Origin: Bacillota bacterium | GTDB lineage: Bacteria; Bacillota; Clostridia; Lachnospirales; Lachnospiraceae | Direction of reading: 5' to 3' | Assembly (NCBI GenBank): GCA_023435505.1 | Contig: JAEYRR010000091.1 | Span: 1 to 13,260 of the forward strand | Length of the DNA stretch: 13,260 nt | Part shown: positions 1,430 to 9,706 of the stretch, piece after piece | Layout of the letters: each line of letters starts with the position of its first letter | Position numbering within the stretch: the first letter of the stretch is position 1 | Translations under genes and position numbers: made by a program | The notes under the pieces: model-generated | Told to the model about the DNA's origin: nothing | The model's input: only the letters and a program-made list of their open reading frames with translations | Databases searched by the model: none

Positions 1430-1597
1430 TTAGCCTTCGATGGATTCTGTTGGACAGACAGCTTCACAAGCGCCACAGTCGATGCAAGTATCAGCATCAA
1501 TGATGTATTGGCTATCTCCTGCAGAAATTGCGCTTACTGGACATTCACCTTCGCAAGCTCCACAGCTAATGCAAGTATCTTTAATTACGTGTGCCAT
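1430..1597 (-). CDS. 2[4Fe-4S] ferredoxin, 55 residues
   Basis: A small electron carrier of the clostridial type. The protein starts MAHVIKDTCISCGACEGECP and carries two complete cluster motifs: CISCGACEGEC followed by Pro (Cys9, 12, 15, 19) and CIDCGACEAVC followed by Pro (Cys38, 41, 44, 48). The length of 55 residues matches classical 2[4Fe-4S] ferredoxins. AGGAGG at 1611-1606 precedes the ATG at 1597. It lies 114 bases downstream of the pyruvate formate-lyase activase on the same strand. A terminator follows it but none is obvious between the two genes, so it may be partly co-transcribed with the pfl cluster, or use a weak promoter of its own. Activases of this family need a one-electron reductant, so it is a plausible donor (inference); it could equally serve pyruvate:ferredoxin oxidoreductase or hydrogenase. 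Confidence 0.95.
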   Translation of the reverse strand: MAHVIKDTCISCGACEGECPVSAISAGDSQYIIDADTCIDCGACEAVCPTESIEG

Positions 1598-1711: not shown

Positions 1712-2461
1712 TTATAATGCCTTAATACGATTTCTCATACCTTTAAGAATCTCATTTCTAGCGTGTAAGGCTTCCCCCTTAGTAGCAGCAGAAACACCTT
1801 CTAGTGGATAGGGAATGCCTAAGGTTTCGTATTTAACCTTACCCATAGTGTGGTAGGGCAATACATCTAATGCTTTTATATTCTTAAATTGTCCTAGAAA
1901 GTATCCCAAGTCATATAAAGCCTTATCATCCAAAGTAATTCCAGGAACTACAACATGACGGATCCATACAGGAATCTCTTTTTCATTCAGATAATGGGCG
2001 AAATTCAAAATCGCCTTGTTATCTGCTCCTGTAAGACTCCTATGCTGCACCGGATCTATATGCTTGATGTCTAAAAGTATCAGGTCAGTAACATTCATCA
2101 GTTTTTCCAGTTTCTCATGCTGGAGTGCGTTACCTTGCTGGTAGACAGCGCCCGAAGTATCGATGCAAGTATGAATTTCTTTTTCTTTACACTGGGTAAA
2201 TAGGTCTATGAGAAAATCCATCTGTAACAGGGGTTCCCCGCCCGTAACGGTTATCCCCCCATTTTTCAGGAATTCCTTACAACCTTCATATTGCTCTAAA
2301 ATCTGTGATACTTCCATAAGCGTTCCGCCTTCAAAGTTCCAAGTATCTGGATTATGACAGTACTTACAACGAAGAGGGCAGCCCTGGGTAAATACTACAA
2401 ACCTTATGCCAGGGCCATCTACGGTACCACAGCTTTCAATAGAATGGATTCGACCTAACAT
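1712..2461 (-). CDS. pflA: Pyruvate formate-lyase activating enzyme (radical SAM)
   Basis: This 249-residue enzyme uses S-adenosylmethionine and one electron to abstract a hydrogen from the glycine of pyruvate formate-lyase, making the active glycyl radical. The radical-SAM cluster motif is C28-x3-C32-x2-C35 (CPLRCKYC). It is followed by GGEP at 74-77, DTSG at 101-104, LLDIKH at 129-134 and WIRHVVVPG at 166-174, all typical of PflA. The length is normal for the family and there is no extra ferredoxin-like insert, as in true PFL activases. The ATG at 2461 lies one base after the stop of the separate glycyl-radical subunit (TAA-G-ATG). I see no Shine-Dalgarno site in front of it, so translation is probably coupled to that gene. 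Its natural substrate here is presumably the neighbouring 78-residue protein. Confidence 0.96.
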   Translation of the reverse strand: MLGRIHSIESCGTVDGPGIRFVVFTQGCPLRCKYCHNPDTWNFEGGTLMEVSQILEQYEGCKEFLKNGGITVTGGEPLLQMDFLIDLFTQCKEKEIHTCIDTSGAVYQQGNALQHEKLEKLMNVTDLILLDIKHIDPVQHRSLTGADNKAILNFAHYLNEKEIPVWIRHVVVPGITLDDKALYDLGYFLGQFKNIKALDVLPYHTMGKVKYETLGIPYPLEGVSAATKGEALHARNEILKGMRNRIKAL

Positions 2462-2462
2462 C

Positions 2463-2699
2463 TTATATATTTTGGTGGAAAGTACGGGAGATAACGTCGT
2501 CCTGTTGTTCCTTTGTAAGCTTATTGAAGTTTACCGCATAACCGGATACACGAACGGTAAGCTGAGGATACATTTCAGGATGAGCCTGAGCATCTAATAA
2601 TGATTCCTTTGTAAATACGTTTACGTTAAGGTGGTGACCACCTTTTTCAACGTATCCGTCTAATAGTTGAACTAAGTTTTCTACTTGTTGAGTTGCCAT
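2463..2699 (-). CDS. Free-standing glycyl-radical domain of pyruvate formate-lyase (GrcA/YfiD-like)
   Basis: This 78-residue protein corresponds to the C-terminal domain of pyruvate formate-lyase. [18 protein letters not shown] matches the segment just before the radical domain, and RVSGYAVNF (residues 50-58) is the glycyl-radical loop, with Gly53 as the residue activated by PflA. The end, [10 protein letters not shown], is the usual PFL C-terminus. The core enzyme upstream lacks this domain, so the protein is probably an essential subunit rather than a spare part. In Escherichia coli the homologous YfiD/GrcA repairs PFL broken at its glycine, which shows that such a domain can work in trans. 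A strong AGGAGG overlaps the stop of the preceding gene and lies seven bases before the ATG at 2699, so it has independent translation initiation. Whether the holoenzyme forms from these two parts is inferred. Confidence 0.92.
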
Positions 2700-2710
2700 G
2701 ATTTATCCTC

Positions 2711-2911
2711 CTAGTCTTCGTCAATGCTATCCTGCATAGTTGGAATGGCACATGCCTGATTTCCAAGGGAGCAGTCTTGGCTTTTATAAGTTTCTACCTG
2801 CAGGTCCTCCTCATCTTGGGAGTTGACCTGAAGATTAATGTGACCAACGCCATCCTGAACGCATCCGTCCAGCATTGCTATGATATCTTCAATTTGTTTG
2901 TTTGGGTTCAT
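2711..2911 (-). CDS. Small protein resembling the start of the glycyl-radical domain but lacking the radical loop
   Basis: A 66-residue protein starting MNPNKQIEDIIAML, between the PFL core and the free radical subunit. Residues 6-30 align with residues 5-29 of the downstream subunit: QIEDIIAMLDGCVQDGVGHI against [20 protein letters not shown]. They share LDG, Gly, His and Asn positions. After that the sequence diverges into an acidic, Gln-rich stretch with Cys17, Cys47 and Cys54, and there is no RVSGYA glycyl motif, so it cannot carry the radical. I do not recognise a named family. ATG at 2911, one base after the core gene's stop with AGGTGA upstream, is preferred to an in-frame GTG at 2920 that would overlap that stop and has no ribosome site. 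It may be a duplicated, repurposed linker acting as a spacer or regulatory subunit, or a decaying duplicate. Confidence 0.7.
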   Translation of the reverse strand: MNPNKQIEDIIAMLDGCVQDGVGHINLQVNSQDEEDLQVETYKSQDCSLGNQACAIPTMQDSIDED

Positions 2912-2912
2912 A

Positions 2913-4955
2913 TTATTCACCTAGAGTATCGAGATCAATCTCTCCGGTAAACAGCTGATCATCCTTACCAAGGGCACCTGGCACGATGGAGAAGGTATTG
3001 CTGATACCGTCCTGAGCATGTTTAAAAGGTAGTTTTGCTACGGAAGCAAGGGAAGCAACTGCTCCATTGGTATCTCTGCGGTGCATTGGGTTGGCACCTG
3101 GCGCAAGAGGTTCACCCATACGTCTTCCATCTGGTGTGTTACCGGTCTTCTTGCCATATACCACATTGGAGGTAATGGTTAAGATAGACATCGTTGGGAA
3201 ACTATCACGATAAGTGTGGTGCTTACGTATTTTATCCATGAAGTTCTTTACAAGATCTACAGCAATCTGGTCTACACGGTCATCGTTGTTACCGTATTTA
3301 GGGAAGTCACCTTCTACCTCAAAATCAGTAACGATGCCATTTTCATCACGGATTGGCTTTACCTTGGCATATTTGATGGCACTTAGAGAATCAGCAACAA
3401 CGCTAAGTCCGGCAATACCGGTTGCAAAGTATCTTTTTACTTCCCTATCATGAAGAGCCATTTGAATCTTTTCGTAGCAGTATTTATCGTGCATATAATG
3501 GATGACATTCAGCGTATTTACATATAATCCTGCCAACCATTCCATCATATCATCAAATTTGGTTATTACATCCTCATAGTCCAGATATTCTCCTTCTGCA
3601 GGACGGAACTTAGGACCTACCTGAATCTTCAGCTTTTCATCCATACCACCATTGATTGAGTACAGTAAGCACTTTGCTAAGTTGGCACGGGCACCGAAGA
3701 ACTGCATTTCCTTACCGATACGCATGGAGGATACACAGCAGGCAATCGCATAGTCATCACCATGAGTCTGTCTCATTAAGTCATCATTTTCATACTGTAT
3801 GGAAGAAGACTTAATTGACATTTTAGCACAGTATTCTTTGAAGTTTCTTGGTAGTCGAGTGGACCAGAGTACAGTAAGGTTTGGCTCTGGAGATGTTCCT
3901 AAGTTATCTAAGGTATGGAGATAACGGAAGGAGGTCTTAGTTACCAGATGACGACCATCCACTCCTACACCAGCAATTGATTCTGTAACCCAAGTAGGAT
4001 CTCCGGAGAAGAGCATATTATATTCAGGAGTACGAGCAAATTTTACAAGTCTTAACTTCATAATAAAATGATCAATGTATTCCTGAGCCTGTTCTTCTGT
4101 AATTACACCATTCTTAAGATCTCTTTCAATATAAATATCTAAGAAGGTAGAGGTTCTACCTAAGCTCATGGCAGCTCCATTCTGCTCCTTAACAGCAGCT
4201 AGGTAACCAAGATACAGCCATTGAATTGCTTCTTTAGCATTTGCTGCCGGTCTGGAGATATCGAAGCCATAGATGTTACCTAATTCTTTTAATTCACCAA
4301 GAGCTCGGATCTGTTCTGATAGCTCTTCCCTTAAACGCATATTCTTGGAAGTCATACGTACCAGAGAAGTACTGAGCTGATTTTTCTTATCTTCAATTAA
4401 ATAATCAACTCCGTATAAGGCAACACGACGGTAATCACCAATGATACGACCACGCCCATAGGCATCTGGAAGACCTGTAATGATACCAGACTTTCTTGCT
4501 AACCTCATCTCTGGAGTATAAACATCGAATACACCCTGATTATGAGTTTTTCTGTATTTGGTGAAAATATCCACAACTTCAGGGTCTACCTCATAACCAT
4601 TCTCATGGCAAGCGTTCTGAGCCATACGAATTCCGCCAAATGGCTGAAGAGAACGTTTAAAAGGTTTGTCAGTCTGAAAACCTACGATAGTTTCTAATTC
4701 TTTATCTAAATATCCAGGGCCATGAGAAGTGATAGTGGAGACGGTTTTTGTATCCATATCCAGTACGCCACCGGCTTCAAGTTCCTTTTTTGAAAGATCC
4801 ATAACCTGTGCCCACAGTTTATTGGTAGCTTCTGTAGGACCTACTAAAAAGGAATCATCCCCATCGTACATGGTGTAGTTTTCCTGAATAAAGTCTCTTA
4901 CATTAACAGAAGTAGTCCATTTACCTAGTTTAAATCCTGTCCATGCTGCATTCAT
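2913..4955 (-). CDS. pflB: Pyruvate formate-lyase core subunit lacking the glycyl-radical domain
   Basis: Formate C-acetyltransferase converts pyruvate and CoA to acetyl-CoA and formate in anaerobic fermentation. The 680-residue protein starts [13 protein letters not shown] and keeps the PFL barrel, including SHGPGYLD (77-84), the active-site pair Cys406-Cys407 in IACCVSSM, and [19 protein letters not shown] (605-623). It stops after [20 protein letters not shown]. In one-piece enzymes of about 750-760 residues a linker and glycyl-radical domain follow; here they are encoded by a separate downstream gene, and 680 plus 78 residues equals the normal length. The ATG at 4955 is chosen because AGGAGGAGG lies just upstream; an in-frame ATG at 4997 would add 14 residues foreign to the family. 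The core is well conserved with no sign of decay. It is the first gene of a cluster with pflA. Confidence 0.95.
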
Positions 4956-5088: not shown

Positions 5089-5117
5089 ATTATATGATAA
5101 GAGGCAAGTATCGTCAA
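5089..5117 (-). promoter_or_regulatory. Sigma-A promoter of the pfl cluster
   Basis: On the minus strand TTGACG (5117-5112), a 17-bp spacer and a perfect TATAAT (5094-5089) predict transcription from about 5082. This leaves a leader of about 127 bases before the PFL core gene. Confidence 0.85.
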
Positions 5118-5407: not shown

Positions 5408-5443
5408 AACCTTATTTCCAATATAAAGTTAGGAGGTAAGAAC

Positions 5444-5647
5444 ATGGCTAAGATATCAAAAGATATGTTTATAGCGGAGATTATCCAGGTTGATCAGGGA
5501 CTAATCCCTATTTTATTAAATTCAGGAATGCACTGTCTTGGATGCCCATCTGCTCAGGCTGAATCCCTTGAGGAAGCAGCTATGGTTCATGGAATCGATG
5601 CAGATGCATTAGTTGAAGAGTTAAATGCATATTTAGAAAGCAAATAA
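5444..5647 (+). CDS. DUF1858 redox-disulfide domain protein
   Basis: This 67-residue protein starts [15 protein letters not shown] and consists of a single DUF1858 domain, the family also described as the hybrid-cluster-protein-associated redox disulfide domain. Its hallmark CLGCP is at residues 31-35, with Cys31 and Cys34 able to form a disulfide or bind a metal or cluster. The surrounding pattern, a long helix of the [12 protein letters not shown] type followed by [12 protein letters not shown], is typical. The biochemical role of the family is not established; redox sensing or Fe-S/nitrosative stress functions are suggested by its usual neighbours. Here it is a single-gene transcript with AGGAGG (5431-5436), its own promoter, and a strong terminator. 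It is divergent from the oxygen-sensitive pfl cluster, so a shared redox control is conceivable but not shown. Confidence 0.9.
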
Positions 5648-6866: not shown

Positions 6867-7928
6867 ATGAAATTTGTACATATTGCCGATGTGCATCTTG
6901 GGATGCAGCCAGATTTGGGATATCCATGGAGCGAAGCCAGGAAGCGGGAAGTGTATGAGACATTCTTTAGGGTAATTGATTTTTGTAGGGAACAGGAAGT
7001 AGACCTACTATTAATTGCAGGGGATTTGTTTCATCGCCAACCCAATAAGCAAGAGATGTCTGAGGTTTTATATGCATTTAAAAAATTATATAAGACGAAG
7101 ATTGTTCTGATTGCAGGAAACCACGACTATATGGGAATCGGCTCTCTATATGAAAGTGAGAACTGGCCGGTAAATGTGAAACTATTGGCTAAGAAGGACA
7201 TAGAGAGCTATTACATAGAAGAGCTAAATACCTATATATATGGCTATAGTTATGAGAGCCAGGATGTGAAGGAAAACCGCATTCAGAATGTAAAACCTAT
7301 GAGTAAGAAAGGTTATCATATACTATTGGCTCATGGTGGTGATTCTAATAACAATCCATTAAATCGCCAGGAACTAGTAAATACTCCATTTGACTATGTA
7401 GCATTAGGTCACATACATAAACCTGAACGTATCGGTGCCAGGACGGCATATGCAGGCTCCTTAGAACCACTAGATAAGACAGAGACAGGAGTTCATGGAT
7501 TTATATTGGGAACTTTAGGGGAGAAAGGTTGCTATTTACAGTTTGTATCGTTTGCAAAAAGGCATTATGAGCAACTGGTCGTAGAAGTAGAGCCAGGAAT
7601 GACCTTATATGCCATTCGTAATAAAGTGCAAGAGCTTATTAGGAAGCGTGGAAAAGAGAATATCTACAAAATATTGTTAGAGGGTACAGCATCTGCAGAA
7701 CTGATGCTGGAAAAGGAGGTACTGTATTCCATGGGAAATGTAATAGAAGTAGTAGATCAGACAAATCCAGATTATGATTATGAGAAGTTACATTATGAAA
7801 ATCAAGATAATATTGTAGGTATGTATATAGAAAGTATAAGAAATATGGATTTAGCAGATGAGGAAAAGGACCTGGCACTCTATTATGGAATAAAGGCATT
7901 TGCAGGTTCCAAAATAAATGAAAGGTAA
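6867..7928 (+). CDS. SbcD/YhaO-like metallophosphoesterase, DNA repair nuclease subunit
   Basis: The 353-residue protein is a calcineurin-type phosphoesterase of the Mre11/SbcD group. Metal-binding motifs appear in order: ADVHLG (Asp8, His10), AGDLFH (Asp53), AGNHD (Asn85, His86), the lone His156 in LLAHGG, and GHIH (His182, His184). Residues after about 240 form the family's capping region, with a C-terminal helical part expected to contact the ATPase partner. With the following SbcC-like gene it should form a nuclease-ATPase complex acting on DNA ends or hairpins in the cytoplasm. Length and partner suggest the Bacillus YhaO/YhaN pair rather than canonical SbcCD, which has a much longer ATPase. 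It is the first gene of the operon, 11 bases before its partner. The family assignment is sure; the choice between the SbcD and YhaO labels is less so. Confidence 0.92.
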   Translation: MKFVHIADVHLGMQPDLGYPWSEARKREVYETFFRVIDFCREQEVDLLLIAGDLFHRQPNKQEMSEVLYAFKKLYKTKIVLIAGNHDYMGIGSLYESENWPVNVKLLAKKDIESYYIEELNTYIYGYSYESQDVKENRIQNVKPMSKKGYHILLAHGGDSNNNPLNRQELVNTPFDYVALGHIHKPERIGARTAYAGSLEPLDKTETGVHGFILGTLGEKGCYLQFVSFAKRHYEQLVVEVEPGMTLYAIRNKVQELIRKRGKENIYKILLEGTASAELMLEKEVLYSMGNVIEVVDQTNPDYDYEKLHYENQDNIVGMYIESIRNMDLADEEKDLALYYGIKAFAGSKINER

Positions 7929-7939
7929 AGGGATGCACA

Positions 7940-9706
7940 TTGTATATTAAAACACTGAATGTAAGTCATTTTGGTAAATTTCATCATAAAACGATTCATC
8001 TAGAGGATGGAATCAACATTGTGGAAGGACGCAATGAATCAGGAAAATCTACTATTCATGCCTTTATCAAGGGTATGCTTTTTGGAATTGATAAGACAAG
8101 AGGTAGAGAGGGCAAGGACGATTTATATAGTAAATATCAACCTTGGGATGATATGGCTTCATATAATGGTAGTATGGATATCGAGTTAAATGGGTCATTT
8201 TATCGTATTAACCGCAACTTTTACAAGGAAACAAAGGAAAGTACCATGTATCAATTAGATTCTGGCAGGGAAACCAGCCTGGAATCCGGACAAAGGCTTC
8301 CTATTCTGGAGGGAGTTAATCGCACAACCTTTCAGAATACGATTAGCATTGAACAGCTAAGACCTGAAACAGATGTATCTTTTGTAACTGAGGTGCAGAA
8401 TTATTATACAAACTTAACTACAGCAAAACACGGAAACGTGTCTATTTCTGTCGCTCTGGAGAATCTAAAAAAGGATAAAAAGGCAGTGAATCTGGAAGCC
8501 ATCAAAGAGGAAATGGCAAAAGTAGAGGGGACCCTTGCTGAGATTGAGAAGGAAAAAGAGGAAAAGAAAGCGCTTGAAGAGCAGATTATAAGTCTGGAAG
8601 AACAGGAGTTGTCTCAGGAAAAGAAAATTGAAATTAGTGAATTTATGGTGATGAAGCAACAGGTTGGAGATAAAGCCTATGCGTATCAGATACTAGAAGA
8701 TCAGATACAGGAATATGAGGAAACTGTCAGTGAACGGCAATATGAAAAGAAAAAGGAAGCTGCTAAGAGTAAAAGCTTTGAGCTTCTGTTTATAGCTTGT
8801 ATCATTGCCTTAGTAGGCTGTATTGTAGGAGTAGCATTAAAGAGTACCGCATGTCTAATAGGAAGCTTTGTGCTGTTACTGATGGTATTAGGAGCTGCTT
8901 TTATAGTACCTGTAATTCTGGCTAAGACTAATCCAGCACAACGAACGGCTCAGGAAGAAGAGTATCTGCAGTTGCTACATAATAAGAAGAAGAAGCTGGT
9001 AGCAGAGCTTGTAGAGTATCAGGCTCAGTTTGGCATGGAAGAAATGACGGTGTTAGAGTTTTCCAAGCAAATCAAAAGCCGGCTGGAATTACAGTTTAAG
9101 AACCTTTCCCTACAGCTTAAGGAAGAGAATACTGGAAAAGAGAGAAGAATTCTGGAGCTTAAGGTAAGACTTCAACAGTTGGAAGAAAAAATAGCGATGA
9201 AGAGCAGCCTAGATAGAAAAAAGGAAGAACTGCGTGTAATTTATACAGAGAAGTGTAGAGAAATTAGGATGATTGATCTGGCAATGGAGAAGATTAAAGA
9301 GTTATCCCACACCATCCATGATTCCTTTGGTAAAGAAGTTAACAGTGAGCTATCCAAGGTGGTTAAGCAGTTAACGAATGGTAGGTATTCCAGAGTATAT
9401 GTAGATGAAAAAATGAATATATCTGTTGAATATGATCATAAAAAGGTTTCAATTCAAAAATTAAGTACGGGAACGATTCATCAGATTTATTTTGCTCTTC
9501 GTATGGTGTTTGCTAGACATCTGTTCCCGAACTCTAAACTGCCTCTTATTTTAGATGAAACCTTTGTCTACTATGACAGTGGGCGCTTGGAAGAGGTTTT
9601 AAGAATTTTGCCTAAAGATCAACAAATAATTCTCTTTACATGTCAGGATAGGGAAAGAAAGATATGTGATAAACTTGGAATCTCCTATCACCATATCAGT
9701 CTGTAA
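7940..9706 (+). CDS. Short SbcC/YhaN-like ATPase with a membrane hairpin in the coiled coil
   Basis: This 588-residue SMC/Rad50-type ATPase has the N-terminal P-loop GRNESGKST (30-38), a Q-loop region near TISIEQL (134-140), and long coiled coils at about 170-275 and 335-460. The ABC signature LSTGTIHQI (508-516), Walker B LILDE (536-540) and a switch region ILFTC complete the ATPase head. In place of a Cys-x-x-Cys zinc hook at the coiled-coil tip there are two hydrophobic helices at about 280-300 and 304-328, joined by a tight loop. The protein is therefore probably anchored in the membrane with its ATPase head in the cytoplasm. The start is TTG at 7940: AAAGGG lies seven bases upstream, and an ATG at 7933 opens only a five-codon frame. 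It should pair with the preceding nuclease. Canonical SbcC is around 1,000 residues, so this is a compact relative. Confidence 0.9.
   Translation: MYIKTLNVSHFGKFHHKTIHLEDGINIVEGRNESGKSTIHAFIKGMLFGIDKTRGREGKDDLYSKYQPWDDMASYNGSMDIELNGSFYRINRNFYKETKESTMYQLDSGRETSLESGQRLPILEGVNRTTFQNTISIEQLRPETDVSFVTEVQNYYTNLTTAKHGNVSISVALENLKKDKKAVNLEAIKEEMAKVEGTLAEIEKEKEEKKALEEQIISLEEQELSQEKKIEISEFMVMKQQVGDKAYAYQILEDQIQEYEETVSERQYEKKKEAAKSKSFELLFIACIIALVGCIVGVALKSTACLIGSFVLLLMVLGAAFIVPVILAKTNPAQRTAQEEEYLQLLHNKKKKLVAELVEYQAQFGMEEMTVLEFSKQIKSRLELQFKNLSLQLKEENTGKERRILELKVRLQQLEEKIAMKSSLDRKKEELRVIYTEKCREIRMIDLAMEKIKELSHTIHDSFGKEVNSELSKVVKQLTNGRYSRVYVDEKMNISVEYDHKKVSIQKLSTGTIHQIYFALRMVFARHLFPNSKLPLILDETFVYYDSGRLEEVLRILPKDQQIILFTCQDRERKICDKLGISYHHISL

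Follow-up and report, generated by a model that had tools for sequence, protein, structure and literature searches.

Pyruvate formate-lyase (PFL), a textbook example of an oxygen-destroyed enzyme, is one of the main ways in which gut anaerobes convert pyruvate to acetyl-CoA. In one-piece PFL, typified by PflB of Escherichia coli (family TIGR01255; PDB entries 2pfl and 1h16), the catalytic cysteine pair and the glycyl-radical loop RVSGYA lie on one chain. In this work, we analyzed a stretch of 13,260 nucleotides from a Lachnospiraceae genome (contig JAEYRR010000091.1), referred to as the window, in which the same pair and loop are found on two polypeptides, each with its own start and stop: a core without radical glycine and a small protein of the GrcA3 family. 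Added to them, in a further difference from one-piece PFL, is a short cysteine-bearing element, here called the dithiol module, which in the window is encoded by a third gene between the other two. We read the locus as a PFL whose radical domain became a separate subunit, with the dithiol module as a helper, and give this explanation as a whole a probability of about one half.

Separate small glycyl-radical proteins are known as GrcA/YfiD and GrcA2, and radical transfer in trans by GrcA is established (PMC8683613, PMC12338860). The GrcA3 protein of the window differs from YfiD in lacking its disordered N-terminus of roughly 60 residues, and the core differs from the partner of YfiD in having no radical domain of its own that would need displacement. 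The curated family GrcA3 (NF038360) includes the window protein, although its NCBI name describes an autonomous cofactor. In most genomes examined, however, no PFL other than the split one was found, and GrcA3 supplies its sole radical domain, so that it appears to be a subunit rather than a spare cofactor.

The split is thus already half visible in databases, through the GrcA3 family and through PDB entry 38lb. The latter, titled "Formate acetyltransferase", comprises 683 residues that differ at one place from a natural 718-residue core without radical glycine (P0241); this core belongs to the clade of split cores described below, on its Coriobacteriia branch. A natural split-core structure has therefore already been solved. 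In contrast to the locus described here, no GrcA3-like chain belonging to 38lb or 38la was among the 33 PDB matches of GrcA3 (E <= 0.001). No publication was found for either entry, and in the open-licence literature we found no paper on a PFL split as the normal state. The dithiol module and its complementary occurrence as gene or core tail look new, no literature search having been aimed at the module.

Two other enzyme classes offer comparisons for the module. In class I ribonucleotide reductase (RNR), E. coli NrdA likewise has a cysteine pair at its C-terminus (GCESGACKI), on a tail that is presumed flexible and believed to reduce the disulfide of the active site again (PMC11447812), and in the split class II enzyme NrdJa/NrdJb of Pseudomonas aeruginosa the pair lies on a small subunit of its own, which serves mainly in thiol-disulfide exchange (PMC4520616). 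RNR differs in oxidising its pair at every turnover, and its likeness to the module is confined to a motif seen by eye. Benzylsuccinate synthase, for its part, has a small accessory subunit, BSS-beta, with a [4Fe-4S] cluster and a fold like that of high-potential iron-sulfur proteins (HiPIP) (PMC12590467). The middle protein would resemble it in being a small accessory part of an enzyme of the glycyl radical class, but the modules described here mostly have two or three cysteines.

Results

Coordinates are those of the whole window. The pfl operon lies entirely on the minus strand and is transcribed in the order core (4955-2913), 66-residue protein (2911-2711), 78-residue GrcA3 (2699-2463) and pflA (2461-1712), with the following features:

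2913..4955, minus strand: PFL core (PflB minus the radical domain), 680 amino acids, start ATG, stop TAA, AAGGAGGAGG upstream; TIGR01255 and Pfam PF02901
3735..3740, minus strand: catalytic pair Cys406-Cys407 of the core, within ACCVS; from the sequence
2711..2911, minus strand: dithiol module gene ("middle"), 66 amino acids, N-terminal half GrcA3-like, C-terminal half with C-x6-C; seed hidden Markov model (HMM), alignment and hhalign
2750..2773, minus strand: cysteine-pair segment CSLGNQAC of the middle protein, running from Cys47 to Cys54, with AIPT next to it on the C-terminal side; from the sequence
2463..2699, minus strand: GrcA3, separate glycyl-radical subunit, 78 amino acids; NF038360, 162.8 bits, cut-off 158
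2541..2543, minus strand: radical glycine codon, Gly53 of GrcA3, within RVSGYA; from the sequence
1712..2461, minus strand: PflA, radical-SAM activating enzyme; TIGR02493, 298.1 bits, cut-off 231.75

An earlier note on this DNA, made from the sequence alone, had described a core of 680 residues with Cys406-Cys407 intact and no radical glycine, and a separate 78-residue protein with RVSGYA and its own ribosome site. The sequence check confirmed the coordinates, the lengths and their sum (680 + 78 = 758); the GrcA3 gene is preceded by AGGAGG, and the core has no glycine loop and no cysteine within its last 60 residues. Of the 744 positions of the TIGR01255 model, the core covers 1-664, with 1147.7 bits (cut-off 994.2), and the small protein 665-743, while against E. 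coli PFL the core alignment ends at residue 680 and that of the small protein begins at residue 683. As the two pieces abut in both comparisons, there is a single cut point, and the 680/683 boundary places it at the domain border, before the helix and the tenth strand. The core alone thus passes the equivalog cut-off and carries the Cys-Cys pair, whereas the radical glycine is not on the same chain. The small protein exceeds the curated cut-off of GrcA3 but misses those of GrcA/YfiD (TIGR04365; 95.7 versus 170 bits) and GrcA2 (NF008341; 100.2 versus 145 bits), so that the likeness to GrcA/YfiD drawn in the earlier note is right in kind but not in membership.

A scan of genome contigs with the core gave 248 relatives, of which the best 80 were taken, making 81 sequences with the window. 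In all 81 the core lacks the RVSGYA loop and is followed downstream by a small protein that contains R[VI]SGYA (an automatic search found the small gene in 78 of the 80 loci; L020 and L079 were added afterwards). Among these relatives the reading frames vary between the pieces, and the stops are separate and the ribosome sites independent in 80/80; the small-protein gene has a match of at least five bases to AAGGAGG upstream in 78 of the 81, a count that leans upwards since gene starts in relatives were picked by ribosome-site match. A frameshift or sequencing error dividing one gene would agree with two lengths that sum to a one-piece PFL, but this artefact is ruled out because all 80 relatives share the split in varying frames with separate stops, mostly with an extra gene in between, and we leave it practically no weight. 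Core and GrcA3 occur side by side in the locus of every relative examined, nearly always accompanied by a dithiol module in the form of a separate protein or a tail of the core.

The best-80 set is biased, since it was chosen as the top matches to a query that is itself split; a better estimate comes from 293 Clostridia genomes drawn evenly. PFL scored above cut-off in 157 of them. Among the GrcA3 matches listed, which go down to E 2.7e-33 so that weaker stand-alone copies could be missed, 16 genomes have a stand-alone GrcA3-type frame of 78-106 amino acids, and the remaining matches listed are inside frames of 534-825 amino acids. The split core is above cut-off in 15 of these 16 genomes; in the sixteenth (G193) it is interrupted by contig ends, and its end is of the split kind. 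One of the 16 (G238) has a full-length PFL besides the split one, and none was found in the other 15. Likewise, of 18 hand-chosen genomes with loci from the best-80 scan, 13 yielded no full-length PFL, and the other five have one in addition to the split form.

The high conservation claimed for both pieces was borne out by the median ratio of nonsynonymous to synonymous substitution rates (dN/dS), 0.033 for the core (18 pairs) and 0.028 for GrcA3 (16 pairs), which means strong purifying selection. For these estimates, pairs had all three genes present, a core dS of 0.05-0.9 and a per-gene dS of 0.05-1.5, which kept 18, 11 and 16 pairs for core, middle gene and GrcA3, respectively. A decayed core whose GrcA3 serves as a spare part for another, full-length PFL could be argued from the 5/18 and 1/16 genomes with such a PFL, but it is contradicted for most genomes examined by the 13/18 and 15/16 in which none was found, and the low dN/dS values and the intact catalytic pair in the window also make it very improbable. 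Taken together, these observations support the split as the normal state of PFL in these bacteria, as the earlier note had assumed. The count of pflA within 700 nucleotides (nt), at least 34 of the 73 loci with enough sequence, is a lower bound from a strict pattern and was not used. One locus (L032), Ruminococcus-like and with L040 as its tree neighbor, was found on a contig titled Alistipes (Bacteroidota), which is perhaps mis-binned.

The two-piece account given before was correct for the core and the radical protein but incomplete, because it overlooked the dithiol module gene between them (2711-2911). The 66-residue product contains three cysteines in all (17, 47 and 54), and at a profile E < 1e-10 a relative of it was found in 55 loci out of 80; against the seed HMM the window protein scores E 5.4e-29, being itself one of the ten seed sequences. 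In the alignment of 56 middle proteins Asp15, Gly21, Cys54 and Pro57 are invariant. Over approximately its first 33 residues the middle protein shares homology with the helix and strand at the N-terminus of GrcA3: hhalign of this alignment against the GrcA3 profile gave a probability of 93.9 (E 1.6e-7) and BLASTP between the two proteins of the window E 4e-7, with a probability of 63 against the full-length PFL profile and a weak match of the window protein to the GrcA3 model (20.2 bits, cut-off 158). The C-terminal half mostly has C-x(4-7)-C with Ala or Pro preceding the second cysteine, and CC pairs in other cases; the motif [AP]C..P[TN] is present in 56/56. The median dN/dS is 0.236, with all 11 usable pairs of relatives below 0.5, and in 49 of the 56 loci the gene overlaps the core stop or begins at most 10 nt from it. 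By dN/dS and by its tight spacing to the core, the middle open reading frame is a genuine gene.

A database search with the middle protein gave 534 clusters among 7989 candidates scored, and the 120 listed of these clusters have no functional name and no Pfam domain; Pfam itself gave no match to the window protein at E <= 0.1. The best of 35 rows in a PDB profile search was a de novo protein (E 0.033), the rest being mostly troponin C and BMP2, and we took these rows as chance matches. MAFFT alignments mixing short rows (middle, or middle plus GrcA3) with long ones were dropped for misplaced rows, and a further alignment (A4), in which one row was misplaced, was likewise unused. In one genome (G152; loci L113 and L127) the order is core, GrcA3, middle gene instead of core, middle gene, GrcA3.

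Where the middle gene is absent, the core itself carries a cysteine-bearing tail at its end, for instance ...DRIEECGNQACNIPNIMDSIDNE or ...DLDCDNGACSSPTLFEGLDTDEK. The 81 sequences comprise 56 with a middle gene and no tail cysteines, 24 with tail cysteines and no middle gene, one with neither and none with both (Fisher p 1e-19, kinship uncorrected); in the 16 sampled genomes the corresponding figures are eight with the gene, six with the tail and two with neither (G184 and G238). Every tail (24/24) and every middle protein (56/56) has at least two cysteines. At the equivalent stretch of full-length PFLs, readable in 118 of 120, 116 have no cysteine and two have one, in the tenth strand, and only one of 80 complete GrcA3 copies has any. 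The label "tail" changes six times on the tree, at least three of them on well supported branches, which indicates that gene and tail were exchanged repeatedly (L132, with a stop in frame, was lost from this tree and the other 12 added rows were labelled by hand). As far as the sequences tell, the module accompanies the split, and what stays constant in it is the cysteine pair. The arrangement of an RNR-type tail, with two or more cysteines close together at the C-terminal end beside the active-site domain, is found in all 24 core tails, and in 56 loci, window included, the cysteines are on a separate protein.

Ruminococcus flavefaciens MA2007 (G018) has two split PFL operons (L155 and L156), with a middle gene in one only. 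The L139 core (G184), with neither tail nor middle gene, stops right at the border (ASLGKDD), like PDB 38la (NSLGKED).

The homology between the N-terminal half of the middle protein and the GrcA3 helix and strand would be expected of a docking or place-holding element that serves recognition of GrcA3, or seals the barrel as a stopper until GrcA3 arrives, the cysteines being secondary. E. coli PFL residues 696-733 are indeed required for YfiD binding (PMC8683613). However, 24 of the 81 sequences keep only the cysteine part, as a core tail without helix and strand, and it is the cysteine pair, not the anchor, that is kept in 80/81, so that we consider such an element rather improbable as the main function.

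The module might instead bind a metal ion or an Fe-S cluster and steer the radical subunit, like BSS-beta or the zinc site that anaerobic NrdD possesses. BSS-beta is in contact with the glycyl radical domain and governs how the thiyl radical forms, and its authors suspect unrecognised accessory subunits in such enzymes (PMC12590467). Four or five cysteines occur in 9/56 middle proteins and four in the tail of L136, while the 120 listed of 7875 cores nearest 38lb, all without the glycine and with tail cysteines, have three (118), four (one) or five (one), 115 of them ending in DCGCC. On the other hand, tails have exactly two in 24/24 of the 80-locus set and in 5/6 of those from the sampled genomes, and 47/56 middle proteins have two or three, that of the window three, compared with the four cysteine ligands per chain of BSS-beta. 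This is too few for four ligands in one chain, although the chains of a dimer could share a site. The PDB profile search with the middle protein had no BSS-beta or HiPIP row at E <= 1, which is weak evidence. A metal-binding module is, on this balance, unlikely.

When 52 split cores were placed in a tree with 30 full-length PFLs from Clostridia, one branch separated the two sets (Shimodaira-Hasegawa-like approximate likelihood ratio test 99), and a second tree with more full-length PFLs and four Coriobacteriia-set cores placed 44/44 glycine-less cores on one side (99). The four Coriobacteriia-set cores were nested among the Clostridia split cores, only cores being compared; two of them have named sources, Olsenella uli (P0288) and Thermophilibacter provencensis (P0314), both Coriobacteriia. 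Both trees were quick and midpoint-rooted; among the split cores L139 (G184) has the longest branch and is the outermost. The second used 28 of the 81 cores and included the full-length PFLs of three genomes having both kinds; P0242 was lost to the pattern or length filter, and so were 12 of 21 further full-length loci (L125, L160, L161, L165-L171, L175 and L177). A single origin of the split, with passage between phyla, is not contradicted by these trees and would be compatible with them.

Joined in silico, the pieces of one relative are predicted to take the fold of one-piece PFL. The AlphaFold2 model of the L002 core plus middle protein (alignment A3, 28 rows) had a predicted local distance difference test score (pLDDT) of 51, and no claim on the fold is based on it. 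In a second model (A8, 93 rows) GrcA3 and most of the core were confident, with the core stretches 597-628 and 669-700 below pLDDT 50.

Discussion

In the reading that we prefer, a PFL with a separate radical subunit and a dithiol helper, GrcA3 would dock on the core at the site that the C-terminal domain (helix, tenth barrel strand, glycine loop and last helix) occupies in one-piece PFL. PflA would install the radical on Gly53 of GrcA3, from where it would move to the cysteine pair of the core. That the split enzyme works in trans is very likely. Should oxygen cut the glycine loop, the 78-residue subunit could be discarded and replaced, and it is plausible that the radical subunit would be replaceable after such cleavage. 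With GrcA3 off, the barrel would be open and the catalytic pair exposed. The module, kept near the core C-terminus either as a tail or through a helix-strand anchor copied from the radical domain, might swing in and keep or make this pair reduced, like the C-terminal pair of NrdA and like NrdJb. The role of thiol-redox helper, drawn from this analogy, is a tentative assignment to which we give somewhat less than even odds.

Several observations weigh against this interpretation. PFL turnover itself is not known to make a disulfide, and the analogy with RNR is therefore limited to repair. L139 (G184) and L141 (G238, the genome that also has a full-length PFL) are without either form of the module, as is L079, a second copy whose genome has the middle gene in another operon. 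The pair itself varies: 66/80 modules have a C-x(n)-C in which Ala or Pro precedes the second cysteine, with n from 4 to 7, and in 3/56 middle proteins the first cysteine is absent, with a CC pair instead. AlphaFold2 gave no placement of the middle protein (pLDDT 23-52), and the position of GrcA3 is partly input-driven, because the alignment held many full-length PFLs. Besides, E. coli PFL cut at 695 showed no detectable YfiD binding (PMC8683613), so that docking of GrcA3 on a core cut earlier would need features unseen in E. coli. As to physiology, Lachnoclostridium phytofermentans (G010) has the split form only, above cut-off, and strain ISDg of this species (C. phytofermentans) is reported to make formate, 0.1 mol per mol of hexose, under two conditions but not at detectable levels under a third (PMC3561251). 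The locus sequenced comes from a strain other than ISDg; as three ISDg genes are listed as PFL in the same paper, the formate may come from elsewhere and is indirect support only.

A separate 78-residue radical part may allow the radical to be loaded, removed and replaced at will, and with a removable radical it would become possible to test radical transfer, half-of-sites activation and oxygen repair directly. The near-constant presence of the dithiol module suggests that the catalytic cysteines need a thiol care that has gone unrecognised; the module would link PFL to the working mode of its structural cousins, the RNRs, and may help to keep the enzyme repairable after contact with air. It is tempting to speculate that split PFL is an oxygen-repairable redesign with a throw-away radical subunit, in which the loss of the covalent lid is offset by an RNR-like swinging dithiol that re-reduces the catalytic cysteines, the module having moved repeatedly between two forms, a tail of the core and a protein of its own that has a copied part of the radical domain as its base. 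This fuller version is possible, although the odds are perhaps one notch lower than for the helper role taken by itself.

Neighbouring features of the window

A search of Rfam gave no match at gathering threshold in the window. Upstream of the core lies one promoter-like site:

5089..5117, minus strand: TTGACG-17-TATAAT (11/12 positions), from a scan that gave 10 sites versus 13.3 expected by chance

A 55-residue 4Fe-4S ferredoxin (1430-1597, minus strand; NF058577, 92.5 bits) follows pflA in the same direction. Diverging from the pfl operon on the opposite strand is the gene of a 68-residue hybrid cluster protein-associated redox disulfide domain protein with a CLGC motif (5441-5647, plus strand; TIGR03980, 94.1 bits). 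The region 6867-9706 (plus strand) starts with an Mre11/SbcD-like nuclease, which scores 67.9 bits against the SbcD model, below its cut-off of 77.65. It is followed by a 588-residue protein that had no NCBIfam match at E <= 1e-10 and, judged by eye, resembles an ATPase/coiled-coil partner.
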